Positions 22,765 to 28,500 of a stretch of 32,128 bases of DNA are shown piece after piece. The position numbers and the translations under genes are program-made. This DNA is from Magnetococcales bacterium (GTDB taxonomy: Bacteria > Pseudomonadota > Magnetococcia > Magnetococcales > UBA8363), in NCBI GenBank assembly GCA_002753515.1, contig PEAK01000022.1, positions 1-32,128 on the forward strand, read 5' to 3'. The notes beneath the pieces were generated by a model. It was not told where the DNA came from, searched no databases, and saw only the letters and a program-made list of their open reading frames with translations. The first letter of the stretch is position 1; each line of letters begins with the position of its first letter.

Positions 22765-22917
22765 TTCTACTTTGTCACATTAGAATATACGCCCTGGATC
22801 CCCGCTTTCGCGGGGATGACAGAGCAGAAAATCCGTTGAAAAAGGGCAACCGTCATCCCCGCGAAAGCGGGGATCCAGAAGCTACAAACGCCGAACTGGA
22901 AATGTGACAAAGTAGAA
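22765..22917. mobile_element. MITE-like element with 17-bp terminal inverted repeats
   Basis: TTCTACTTTGTCACATT (22765-22781) is exactly inverted at 22901-22917. Inside, 27-bp arms at 22794-22820 and 22852-22878 are also perfectly inverted, and each carries a hairpin ATCCCCGC-GAAA-GCGGGGAT. The bases TTAT flank the element on both sides (22761-22764 and 22918-22921), a possible 4-bp target duplication. No transposase is encoded, so movement would need one from elsewhere. Confidence 0.6.
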
Positions 22918-22962: not shown

Positions 22963-23865
22963 CTAAAAGGGAAAGCCGGTCGTGGGGGAGCGTTTGATTT
23001 CCGGGGCACCTCCGGCAACCGCCGCCAGGCGAAATCCCAGATCCGATTGTTTTGCATTCGTGCGCGCAAAAGAACGGCTGGTACAGCGTAGTCTGGTGGC
23101 ACCATCTTTCCAACTGCCACCGCGAACGGTTTTAAAGGCGTCGTCTTCGATAACTTTTGGATTTTCTTCCTTATGCTTGTGATAGCCGCCGGGGTGATAG
23201 GTATCCAGGGTCCATTCCCTGACGTTGCCACTCATGTCGTAAAGACCCAGTCGATTGGGTTGACGGGTGGCTGCGGGTTGTGTTGCCTGTTTGCTGTTGT
23301 CGGCAAACCAGGCCAGTTGCGTCACATCGGAGCGTCCCGCATAGTCGATGCTGTCGCCCCCCTCCCGGCAACTGTATTCCCATTCCGCTTCGGTGGGCAG
23401 GCGGAAGTGCGCCCTGCCCTGGAAGCGTTCATTCAGATTGGCGCTGATGACCTCGGCATCAATCCATGAAACATGCTCCAGAGGGAAGGTTTCCCCCTTC
23501 TGAAAATGGGAGGGGTTGATCCGCATGATGGATTGCCATTGCCCCTGGGTGGTTTCCCGATCCGCCAACCAAAAATCGCTGACACACACCTGATGCACAG
23601 GTCCTTCATCGTTTTCGCGATGCTCCTTCCACGGTGGCGATCCCATGGTGTAACAGCCCCCGGTGATCCAGACAAAGCGTATTCCGGTCAAGGAATCGGT
23701 CCAATGTTTGCCCGGAACCGGTTCTTCATCAGCCCGTTTGTCGTGGCTGGCGGTATCGAATCGTTCCCATTCATCGATCATGTTGCCGGTGACCAGCAGG
23801 GGATGTCCCACGATCCAGGCACCCAGCAATCCCCCCATCATCCACAATCGCGAAACACCATTCAT
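22963..23865 (-). CDS. exported SUMF1/FGE-sulfatase-domain protein
   Basis: The 300-residue product starts with a hydrophobic segment (about 7-26), suggesting export. The SUMF1 fold follows: FVWITGGCYTMGS (64-76), RETTQGQW (103-110), HFRLPTEAEWEYSCR (153-167), GLYDMSGNVREW (207-218), VRGGSW (247-252) and LGFRLA (276-281). True formylglycine-generating enzymes have a cysteine pair in the segment after RGGSW; here only C261 (LRCTSRSFAR) is visible, so sulfatase activation is unlikely. It may be a binding or modifying protein of the C-type-lectin-like fold. Its ATG overlaps the stop of the caspase-like gene by four bases (ATGA), implying coupled translation and a joint role. Confidence 0.88.
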   Translation of the reverse strand: MNGVSRLWMMGGLLGAWIVGHPLLVTGNMIDEWERFDTASHDKRADEEPVPGKHWTDSLTGIRFVWITGGCYTMGSPPWKEHRENDEGPVHQVCVSDFWLADRETTQGQWQSIMRINPSHFQKGETFPLEHVSWIDAEVISANLNERFQGRAHFRLPTEAEWEYSCREGGDSIDYAGRSDVTQLAWFADNSKQATQPAATRQPNRLGLYDMSGNVREWTLDTYHPGGYHKHKEENPKVIEDDAFKTVRGGSWKDGATRLRCTSRSFARTNAKQSDLGFRLAAVAGGAPEIKRSPTTGFPF

Positions 23866-25577
23866 GAATGTTCTCCATGCGTGCGGGTCAATCGAATGGA
23901 GCCTGGACCTGTCAAAAAGCCATCGAAGGAAGATTTGTGTCCCTTGAGTTTGGATTGGGCGTAGCCAAAAGCTTCCCGCAGGGTGATCCAGCCGACATGC
24001 TCGCCTTGGTTTTCCCCATGGTCAGGCTTTGGTTTGGCTCCGAGCAAACCTTGTATCAGTTCGTAGGTAAAGGCCCCCTGGCGGGCGGGATCGTTGAGGC
24101 CGGAGTCGGTGCGCAACGAGGCCACGGCCCACCCCTGGGTATCGGCAAATCCCTCTTTGGTTGGCATGGCGGCCAGTTTCTTCAATCGGGTGCCACACAT
24201 CCCCTGGCCGTGGAAGCAGGTATCCAGTACGACGACGATCTCACGATCAGGCAGGTTGGCGAGCATGTTTTTTAATTTGTACAGAGGAATGGTGGTATGC
24301 GGGTTGATCTGACGGCCATCGACCTGGAAGGGCAGGAGCAAACCATCGATGAACACGGGGGACTTTTCGCTGCCCCAGGGTGATCCCAGACCGGAGAAAT
24401 AAAACAACAACAGGGCATTGGGATTGGTTTTCCCCTTGTTTGCCAGCCATTCCAATCCTTGGTCGATGGCTTCCAGGGTGGCCTGTTCATCGGTGAGCAA
24501 TCGGGTGTGTTCGCTATCGGGCAGGAAGACTCCGCGCCGGGTCAGGAGCGTACTCATGTTGACGGCATCGCGGTCAGCATAATGACGCGCCTCGACATTT
24601 TGATAGCGGGCAATGCCCACGAACAGGGCATAGGCATCCTGGCGTTTTTTCCAAGGGTCCAGAACGGGTTGGGCTTGAATCTGGGCGTCGAGTTCCGCCG
24701 TGCGTTCGCCGATATTACCGCTTTTCGGCCACGCGGAATCGGGTAGTTCGAGTACCGGGGGTACTTCACCCTTGGGATCGATTTCGGCGATGAGCAATTG
24801 TTCCTTGGCTTTGACAAAGGTGCGTTCGTCGGGATATTCCTTGATCAAAAAATCGATGGTATTTTTAAGCGATACCAGATGTTTGCCGCTGCGAAAGTCC
24901 CGCCATAAATTTTCTACCAGGTAATTGGCGGCATCCTTCATCCACTCTTTGGGAAGGCTGCCCGGCAGGTGTTCCCGGCTCAACCAATCGTAGGCTTCCA
25001 GGTAGCGGGCCATACGTGCCAGGGACATGTATTTGGTATGGGCCAGGGCCATGTTGCCCGGATATTTTTTGAGCCCTTCAAACGCCAACAGATGGGACTC
25101 CTCGTCATCACCCATTTCAAAGCGCAGCCAAGCAAGATTGGCCTGGATCTTCATGCCCAGGCGATCATGGGGGGGGAAATCCTTGGTGGTTTTGTACAAG
25201 GTTTCCCAGGTGCTGCGGGCCTTGGGCAATTGTTTGTCCAGGTAGTAGGCCAACCCGAGGTTGTAGGCGATCGCGGGGTCGGAGTTACAAATATCGTAGG
25301 CGCGGCGCAGGGCGGCCAACGCCAGGGGGCGTTGTTTATCAAAGCGTTCCATCCCTTTGACGGCCATTTCCCGAGCCACGTTGCACAAGCCCGATTTTTC
25401 ATTCCCCCAGGCGCTGCTCCAGGCGGCCAGCGTCAGGATAAAGACGATTACCAGAAAATTGGCGCGGTATGTCGGGCAACCAAGGGGGTGGAAATGGGTC
25501 ATGGTTTCAGGAGTGATCGCCATTGTGGGTTGGAACGATGTCAATGTGTGGTCACCAGCATGCAAAAATTCAGCCAA
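23862..25577 (-). CDS. exported caspase-like (C14) protein with TPR-like region, catalytic His replaced
   Basis: The product, up to 571 residues, has a signal-like segment at about 39-57 (NFLVIVFILTLAAWSSAWG). The start may really be the ATG at 25523 or 25502, because the TTG at 25577 has no ribosome site. Residues about 60-250 are helical, with TPR-like features (SDPAIAYNLGLAYYLDKQLPKA). The caspase domain begins at YALFVGIARYQ (316-326). The histidine motif normally reads YFSGHG but here is YFSGLG, with Leu at 397. The cysteine motif LDTCFHGQG keeps C454. The dyad is therefore broken unless another histidine substitutes. It is likely a pseudo-protease or scaffold. The SUMF1 gene overlaps its stop, and dnaE ends 10 bases upstream. 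Confidence 0.87.
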   Translation of the reverse strand: MAEFLHAGDHTLTSFQPTMAITPETMTHFHPLGCPTYRANFLVIVFILTLAAWSSAWGNEKSGLCNVAREMAVKGMERFDKQRPLALAALRRAYDICNSDPAIAYNLGLAYYLDKQLPKARSTWETLYKTTKDFPPHDRLGMKIQANLAWLRFEMGDDEESHLLAFEGLKKYPGNMALAHTKYMSLARMARYLEAYDWLSREHLPGSLPKEWMKDAANYLVENLWRDFRSGKHLVSLKNTIDFLIKEYPDERTFVKAKEQLLIAEIDPKGEVPPVLELPDSAWPKSGNIGERTAELDAQIQAQPVLDPWKKRQDAYALFVGIARYQNVEARHYADRDAVNMSTLLTRRGVFLPDSEHTRLLTDEQATLEAIDQGLEWLANKGKTNPNALLLFYFSGLGSPWGSEKSPVFIDGLLLPFQVDGRQINPHTTIPLYKLKNMLANLPDREIVVVLDTCFHGQGMCGTRLKKLAAMPTKEGFADTQGWAVASLRTDSGLNDPARQGAFTYELIQGLLGAKPKPDHGENQGEHVGWITLREAFGYAQSKLKGHKSSFDGFLTGPGSIRLTRTHGEHS

Positions 25578-25586
25578 TCGTTATTA

Positions 25587-28500
25587 TTAACGTAGGTGCT
25601 GACTCAGTGCGGCTGAAAAACCGGCCTGACTCCGGGGCCAATTGTGTACAATGTCGGTTAACAGTTCTTCTTTCGGGATAATGTTGAATTCCTGGCCAAA
25701 GCGTGTGGTAACCACGGCGTCGGGCAATTCGATGGCGGTTACAATGCGACAATGGCCCCCGAAATGGTTTTTGAGCAGGCTGCCCAGCCGTTCCATGTTG
25801 GCATCGTTGACCCAGGAGAGGGGGAAACGCAGGCGCAATTCCCGGCAATGGCGTTGGCGATAGGCGTCCAGTGTGGCCACCTCTTCGGCGATGAGCTTGG
25901 GTTCCTCCTCTTCGGCGCTGATGCTCCCCGAAATGATCAGAATGGCATCGCTTTCCAGGGCATCGCGGCTGTTGGCATAGATATCGGCAAACACTACCAC
26001 TTCCAAATGTCCCTCGGGATCCTCCAGGGTGATGAACGCCATGCGATCCCCTTTGCGGGTCCGATGCAGCTTGCGTTCACTGATCACCCCGGCTACCCGG
26101 ACACTTCCTTGAATTTCCCGCTGTGTTTCCAGGCGTTCGCGCAGCTGGCCGCTTCCTTGGATGCCATATCCTTGTAATTCGTCATGATATTTATCCATGG
26201 GGTGCCCGGTCATGTAAAACCCCAAAGATTCTTTTTCGTACTGCAAGGCCAAGGCTTGGTCCAGGGGAACGACATCGGGGAGGGGCAGGGATTCGTCCTC
26301 CGTGTCAAACAAGCTTCTGAAACCCAAATCGCGATCATCGCGTTTTTTGCTGCCCCGGGTCAGAGCATCGGGAAGGGCGGCGAGCAGGGCGGCGCGATGG
26401 GGGGAAATGGCATCCAGGGCCCCTGATTTGATCAGACTTTCCATCATGCGCCGGTTGATGCCGGCATCTGCGGCGCGGTCACACAGTTGCAACAGGTCGC
26501 TGTAGGCCCCATGTTGTTCGCGATGACTCACAATCCTTTCAATGGCCGCCGCCCCGACGTTCTTGATCGCCAAAAGACCGTAGCGAATGCCATTGTTTTC
26601 GACGGTGAAGGTGGTGCTGGATTGATTGATATCCGGGGGATGCACAGCAATCTTCATCGCTTGGCATTCCCGGACGAACTGGGTCACCTTGTCGGTATTG
26701 AGAATATCGCAGGTCAAGGTTGCGGCCAAAAACTCCCTGGGATGATGAGCTTTGAGCCAGGCGGTTTGATAGGAAACCAGGGCGTAGGCGGCCGAGTGGG
26801 ACTTGTTGAAACCGTATCCGGCGAATTTTTCCATGAGATCAAAAATATGTTCCGCTTTTTTCGGATCGATCCTGTTGGCTTCGGCCCCTTTGAGAAAGAT
26901 ATCCTTTTGTGAGCGCATCTCCTCTTTCTTTTTTTTGCCCATGGCACGCCGCAACAGGTCGGCGGTTCCAAGGGAATAGCCGGCCAATACCTGGGAAATT
27001 TTCATCACCTGTTCCTGGTAGAGGATGACGCCGTAGGTTTCCTTGAGAATGGGTTCCAATTCCGGCAGGGGGTAGATGACGGGAATGCGCCCATGTTTGC
27101 GCTGGATGAAATCGTCCACCATGCCCGAACCCAACGGCCCGGGTCGGTAGAGAGCCACCAGGGCGACAATATCCTCGAAGGTGTCCGGGCTCAATTTTTT
27201 CAATATTTCCCGCATGCCCGACGATTCCAGCTGGAAAACGCCACGGGTATGCCCCTCCTGCAACAAGCGGAAGGTTAGTTTATCCTCCATGGTGATGTGG
27301 CGTATATCGATGGGGGGGAGTTGTTCTTTGGCGCGGGTGGCATTGACCATTTTCAACGCCGTATCGATGACCGTCAGGGTTTTCAGTCCGAGGAAGTCAA
27401 ATTTGACCAATCCCGCCTTTTCCACATCGGACATGTTGAACTGGGTGACCGGAATGTTGGAACGGGGATCGCGGTACAGGGGGACCATGTCGGTCAAGGG
27501 ACCGTTGGCCAGGACGACCCCGGCGGCGTGGGTACCGGCGGAACGGGGCAATCCTTCAAGTTCCAGGGCCAGTTCCAGGAGATCCTTGACCGTGGCATCC
27601 TCGCGCATCATGGTGGCGAGGCGTTCTTCCTGGGCGATGGCATCTTTGAGGGTGATACCCAGGGCGAACGGGATCAGCTTGGCGATCCTGTCGACCTGAT
27701 TGTAGGGGATTTCCAGGACGCGACCCACGTCGCGAATGACCGCCCGTGCCTGCAACGTACCAAAGGTGATGATCTGCGCCATGCGATCCCGTCCATAGCG
27801 CTGCTGTACGTAACCGATGACCTTCTCCCGTTTGTCCATGCAAAAATCGACGTCGAAGTCGGGCATGGAGACCCGCTCGGGATTGAGAAAGCGTTCAAAC
27901 AACAGGTGGTAACGGATGGGATCGAGGTCGGTGATGTCGAGGGCCCAGGCGACCAGGGAACCCGCACCGGAACCACGTCCGGGTCCCACGGGTATGTCGT
28001 TGTTTTTCGCCCAGCGGATGAAATCGGAAACGATCAAGAAATAACCCGGGAACCCCATTTGCAGGATGACATCGAGTTCGAATTCCAGGCGTTGTTGGTA
28101 GTGTGCCGTGGTTGCCCCGTGTTCTTCCGGGGGGATCCTGGGCCATACTTCCTCTTTCAGGCGTTTTTCCAGGCCTTGGGCCGCCAGGTGTCTGAGCCAG
28201 GAGGAGAGGTCTTCCCCTTCGGGGGGGTGGAAATCGGGTAGTACGGTGTGGCCCAACTCCAGTTGCACGCTGCAACGCTTGGCGATGTGCAGGGTATTGG
28301 CCAATGCTTCGGGAAGGTCGGCAAAGGTGGTGTTCATTTCCGCCGGGCTGGCAAAGTGATACCGCTCATTCAAACGGGGGCGGTTTTCCTGATATAGCGT
28401 CATGCCCAAGCCGACACAACACAGGGCATCGTGGGCCCGTTGTCCCGAGGGGTCGAGAAAATGACAATCGTTGGTTGCGACGATGGGCAGGTTCAGCGTC

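Follow-up and report, generated by a model that had tools for sequence, protein, structure and literature searches.

Why should a protein that is predicted to be exported and is built on a caspase fold lose its catalytic histidine while keeping its nucleophilic cysteine, and why should its gene be tightly coupled to that of a protein of the SUMF1 fold? These questions are raised by a gene pair in a 32,128-nucleotide stretch of DNA (the window) from a Magnetococcales bacterium, a member of the non-phototrophic class Magnetococcia. The original prediction, made from the letters of the window, had described two open reading frames overlapping by 4 bp and, in the larger product, the motifs YFSGLG and LDTCFHGQG. 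Both reading frames were recovered at their coordinates on the minus strand with the overlap ATGA at 23862-23865, and both motifs read as claimed, with Leu397 in the one and Cys454 in the other. The features of the locus are as follows.

23862..25502, minus strand: gene for a predicted exported TPR plus p20 pseudo-caspase, with the ATG at 25502 as preferred start (42 orthologues)
25404..25502, minus strand: hydrophobic, signal-peptide-like N-terminal segment of the caspase-like protein, residues 26-58, ...NFLVIVFILTLAAWSSAWG
24780..25388, minus strand: domain of TPR helices, 11 of them in the AlphaFold2 model (residues about 64-266)
23880..24653, minus strand: caspase p20 domain, residues about 309-566 (PF00656 and fold matches)
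24387..24389, minus strand: Leu397 at the position of the catalytic His (YFSGLG; orthologue column)
24216..24218, minus strand: Cys454 at the nucleophile position (LDTCFHGQG; 42/42)
24195..24197, minus strand: Cys461, second invariant Cys and proposed disulfide partner of Cys454 (42/42)
23862..23865, minus strand: ATGA overlap of the stop codon of the caspase-like gene and the start codon of the SUMF1 gene
22963..23865, minus strand: gene for the predicted exported SUMF1-fold partner of 300 aa (PF03781, E = 1.4e-42)

The longest caspase-like reading frame spans 23862..25577 on the minus strand and codes for 571 aa when read from a TTG codon, the ATG at 25502, which corresponds to residue 26, being the likelier start of the two. 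The end of a dnaE-like reading frame, at 25587, is ten bases away from the TTG and about 85 from the preferred ATG. In each of the 41 caspase-like orthologues whose 5' end is intact, the conserved core is preceded by a hydrophobic segment, the Kyte-Doolittle mean of which over 12 residues is above 1.8 in 38 of the 41 and 1.5-1.6 in the remainder. From these signal-like N-termini the caspase-like protein is predicted to be exported, and the SUMF1-fold partner has a signal-like N-terminus of its own. The caspase-like protein matches PF00656 with E = 1.7e-12, above the Pfam cut-off, and its AlphaFold2 model has a mean pLDDT of 86.6 and a pTM of 0.62. The modelled p20 domain aligns to metacaspase 4 with a VIA-align Z of 21.2 and to MALT1 with about 19-21, and the structure of the zymogen caspase-8:c-FLIP-L complex is also among its fold matches.

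In the alignment of 42 caspase-like orthologues the column of the catalytic His holds Leu in 26, His in ten, Trp in three and Phe, Arg and Asn in one each, and the tree of the orthologues requires five changes of state in this column. The Phe-bearing sequence lies in a fully supported group in which its sister carries His, and the Asn-bearing one lies within a starred group otherwise made up of His and Phe. Since both thus nest in His-bearing groups, their losses are independent of the large clade with Leu or Trp. By this comparison of sequences, the catalytic His was lost at least three independent times, and the change to Arg may be a fourth. It had originally been held that orthologues with an intact His would point to a one-off mutation in the window. 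Such orthologues do exist (10/42); however, with 32 of 42 sequences lacking the His through three or more events, a one-off mutation at Leu397 is ruled out. The ten orthologues with a complete His-Cys dyad might be active.

With its p20 fold and catalytic Cys, the protein of the window has two of the marks of a C14 peptidase or orthocaspase and, having Leu397, lacks the third, the catalytic His. Pseudo-orthocaspases combine a p20 fold with disruption of the His-Cys dyad and would lack proteolytic activity; a Tyr-Ser pair is common among them and not required, and here the pair is Leu-Cys. By fold and broken dyad the protein is therefore a pseudo-orthocaspase, and one of a distinct subtype, in that it is predicted to be exported, is linked to TPRs, carries a partner for its Cys and has a split SUMF1 partner. 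Accordingly, the expectation that this member of the pair is unable to use the standard Cys-His dyad is borne out.

The nucleophile position holds Cys in 42/42 orthologues, and a second Cys follows at +7 (at +8 in the orthologue L058), again in 42/42. Among 40 C14 domains in which the motif could be recognised, taken as background, His was present in 40/40 and a Cys at +5 to +9 in 0/40, in a sample which, because the motif required the Cys and best-scoring hits were taken, is uninformative on the loss of Cys and under-samples pseudo-variants. Besides these two, Cys65 and Cys97 of the TPR domain are near-invariant and present in all 41 full-length sequences. The mature caspase-like proteins contain four cysteines in 33 cases, six in seven, five in L032 and two in one truncated reading frame. 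The seven with six (L035, L036, L038, L039, L040, L061 and L067) form one clade, with two extra TPR cysteines, nine residues apart, that were gained together, and such a joint gain is expected of a new disulfide. Likewise, 40 of 41 SUMF1 partners contain four cysteines, and the one that differs is truncated where its contig ends. Even cysteine numbers and a paired gain are as predicted for disulfides in an oxidising compartment, whereas the odd count of L032 speaks against this reading; genes of the DsbA family are present in the genome. Judging by the AlphaFold2 secondary structure, one end of the first antiparallel helix hairpin carries both Cys65 and Cys97, and since the model places these two together, Cys454 and Cys461 remain as the other pair. 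On this pattern of conservation, Cys454 and Cys461 probably form a structural disulfide that locks the nucleophile. The second invariant Cys, which the original prediction had missed, gives a reason for the retention of the Cys while the His drifts.

The SUMF1-fold partner has four invariant cysteines (71, 94, 166 and 261), none of them at the position of the FGE catalytic pair. As HMMER aligned its RGGSWKDGATRLRC to the active-site segment of the solved FGE, the claim that the partner lacks the FGE cysteine pair is confirmed, and in 40 SUMF1 orthologues no Cys was found in the segment of this pair, before the conserved YRC. The partner thus belongs to PF03781 by its match and lacks the catalytic Cys pair of an FGE. 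In profile searches its nearest solved relatives, ahead of FGE, are TvpA (2y3c), PorK and PvdO, which, like GldK, share the SUMF1 fold with it by sequence and are non-FGE proteins; all of these are exported or located in the envelope. It scores 109.6 bits against the 350-bit cut-off of the GldK/PorK NCBIfam equivalog and is also far below the cut-off of the PvdO equivalog, nor did the sequences analysed give any hint of a link to T9SS or DGRs. Of the two marks of a DGR-diversified SUMF1 target, a hypervariable C-terminal region and a reverse transcriptase close by, the first was looked for, and no hypervariable stretch was seen across 40 orthologues. The statement that both proteins have lost their active-site residues is correct for the His of the caspase-like protein and may not hold for the SUMF1 partner, its closest solved relatives likewise being non-FGE.

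Of 48 Magnetococcia genomes covered by the class-level profile search, 43 carry the caspase-like gene, including 27/27 of those of high quality (at least 90% complete and at most 5% contaminated); it was not detected in G010 (96% complete, 6% contamination). There is one full-length copy per genome, with hits being split in two fragmentary MAGs, and the weaker profile hits in some Magnetococcia genomes are to other proteins and are limited to their caspase domain. Among 397 Pseudomonadota searched, about 350 of them from outside the class, no full-length homologue was found beyond Magnetococcia, the matches there being confined to the caspase domain. At all 41 loci at which the contig runs on, the SUMF1 partner lies directly downstream; 40 of these have a junction of -4, -1 or 0 nt and one has +9. 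The predicted exported pair therefore recurs class-wide and far beyond chance, as had been anticipated, and the persistence of tight coupling through varied junction types fits selection for co-translation. At many loci the upstream neighbour is a fructose-bisphosphate aldolase gene (fba), in some cases with accA and dnaE before it, and in the window as well as in several relatives dnaE itself adjoins the pair on the upstream side, these names having been read from the neighbour sequences rather than from database matches. This context is a housekeeping one and unlike that of defence islands, and with such neighbours a mobile or defence island is not supported. Nor is a function in the magnetosome, as the caspase-like gene occurs without a strong MamA hit in G022 (99% complete), whereas in G010 MamA is present and the caspase-like gene undetected, although MAGs can miss islands.

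The ratio dN/dS in the TPR and p20 domains of eight close pairs is 0.05-0.20 (0.08-0.19 for p20). The p20 domain is under purifying selection, and these ratios rule out a decaying pseudogene. The identity of p20 relative to that of TPR and of SUMF1 is 0.91 and 0.95, respectively, in His-less lineages and 0.76 and 0.83 in His-bearing ones; being no lower in the former, it indicates that the fold was maintained after loss of the dyad. Over 31 genomes the distances of the caspase-like and SUMF1 proteins correlate with r = 0.90 (partial r = 0.85), and with the neighbouring aldolase the values are 0.64 and 0.59, but the distance pairs are not independent, and co-inheritance, which contributes, would by itself also lead one to expect both the correlation and the synteny.

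With respect to known systems, bacterial pseudo-orthocaspases likewise have a p20 fold whose His-Cys dyad is disrupted, are fixed in their lineages and are presumed to be non-proteolytic (PMC6426788). In the published cases from phototrophic Alphaproteobacteria and Cyanobacteria, e.g., SyOC of Synechocystis, mostly both residues are changed, Tyr-Ser being the commonest combination (PMC6426788), whereas the Magnetococcia protein loses only the His, in several ways, keeps its Cys together with a second one, is predicted to be exported and is TPR-linked. Caspase-FGE fusions, which among the caspase homologues of prokaryotes make up about 5% (PMC3501461), combine p20 and SUMF1 as does the present pair, but do so in a single chain, as in the caspase-FGE_sulfatase proteins (PMC3501461), MaOC4 and L170, while the Magnetococcia pair consists of two coupled genes whose products each have a signal-like N-terminus. 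L170 itself (L170:1315-3450, genome G037, Magnetococcales) is an exported caspase in which dyad and SUMF1 domain stand on one chain, the dyad being intact and the second Cys absent, and may be a catalytic relative of the split pair. In a diverged second pair of caspase and SUMF1 genes from the same class (L141:1899-4459, genome G008) the His-Cys dyad is intact, position +7 carries no Cys, and the N-terminus is lipobox-like.

The simplest reading of the pair is the binding or scaffold role that had been proposed for it. The two exported and probably periplasmic proteins would form a joint non-catalytic module with a core role in the envelope of Magnetococcia, an explanation that we regard, with some reserve, as the probable one. 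The larger protein would present a TPR domain followed by a catalytically dead p20 fold. A disulfide between Cys454 and Cys461, formed in the oxidising periplasm, would tie up the nucleophile and staple the active-site loop. If this lock was fixed first, the His would have been free to drift, with the Cys being kept for structure and not for chemistry, and the His-bearing members may then be inactive, too. The old substrate cleft, the TPRs and the lectin-like SUMF1 fold might bind a shared envelope ligand, either protein or glycan, the SUMF1 partner being made in step through the tight translational coupling. An AlphaFold2 model of a stop-readthrough fusion of the pair, taken from an in-frame relative, reached a mean pLDDT of 76 and a pTM of 0.51, with much of the SUMF1 part below 50, a confidence at which no interface can be read from it. 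As a more general proposal, made tentatively and possible rather than probable, a caspase fold would here have become a permanent extracytoplasmic scaffold by evolving a disulfide on its own nucleophile, the lock coming first, the base being lost repeatedly, and the result becoming a SUMF1-partnered envelope component fixed throughout the class.

The conservation of Cys454 in 42/42 orthologues and the purifying selection on p20 could, however, also be those of a cysteine enzyme that is still catalytic, which is the chief alternative, using Cys454 with another base or for another chemistry such as acyl transfer or ligation, in which case the His-bearing orthologues would be ordinary periplasmic orthocaspases. 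The intact dyad in ten orthologues and in L170, with its SUMF1 fusion, and L141, which adjoins a SUMF1 gene, is in line with this, but the replacements Leu, Trp, Phe, Asn and Arg have no base chemistry in common, no other residue was identified that could serve as the base, and the second invariant Cys would be left unexplained, which makes continued catalysis unlikely. If the disulfide were instead switchable and sensed or transferred oxidising equivalents in the periplasm, an invariant CX6C pair in a predicted exported protein would suit such a redox or thiol-exchange device, as would the habitat of the Magnetococci at oxic-anoxic interfaces. However, CX6C differs from the CXXC of thiol-redox proteins, a thioredoxin fold is absent, and the loss of the His would find no explanation, so that this possibility appears improbable.

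The two remaining alternatives we regard as quite improbable. The protein might be a regulatory pseudo-caspase that pairs with and controls an active caspase encoded elsewhere, as does c-FLIP, which carries a His-to-Arg change. One orthologue (L052) has the same change, other C14 proteins occur in many Magnetococcia genomes, and the caspase-8:c-FLIP-L zymogen is among the fold matches; against this stand G044, a 96% complete genome without any other C14 hit by either profile, and the irregular number of paralogues beside a fixed pair. A role of the pair in conflict or defence, as a module of the caspase plus SUMF1 type with the inactive caspase as a decoy, would accord with the description of inactive caspase effectors and FGS domains in conflict systems (PMC7159879) and with a match to the generic caspase model of PADLOC (E = 4e-12). 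However, the pair is fixed class-wide as a single full-length copy beside dnaE, accA and fba, its proteins are predicted to be exported, and the partner is well conserved (57% mean column identity), with no hypervariable stretch across 40 SUMF1 orthologues; the conflict-system framing of the original prediction therefore finds no support.

Pseudo-orthocaspases and caspase-SUMF1 fusions were already known, and no description was found of a split, Cys-paired and class-wide version. The literature search returned no paper on pseudo-orthocaspases with a disulfide, and the only relevant item naming both caspase and Magnetococcus was a 2012 survey listing strain MC-1 among its genomes. Under the scaffold reading, the natural series of His, Leu, Trp, Phe, Arg and Asn over an invariant Cys pair would illustrate the steps by which a caspase turns into a pseudo-enzyme, and it suggests an order that can be tested, in which the nucleophile is locked and the base then lost. 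Pseudo-orthocaspases are also no longer confined to the phototrophs with which they had been associated (PMC6426788). The predicted exported pair is almost universal in Magnetococcia and apparently unstudied, prokaryotic caspases usually being discussed only as cell-death or conflict proteins.

As to the surroundings of the SUMF1 gene, its own genome (G000) contains 18 PF03781 matches, which we read as a large set for 4.3 Mb. Just 3' of the gene lies an inverted pair of the palindromic repeat CCCCGCGAAAGCGGGGATCCAG, at 22794-22815 on the minus strand and 22857-22878 on the plus strand. Exact matches to the repeat number 168 genome-wide (89 forward and 79 reverse), as compared to none for the reversed control, and these repeats constitute a REP-like family.
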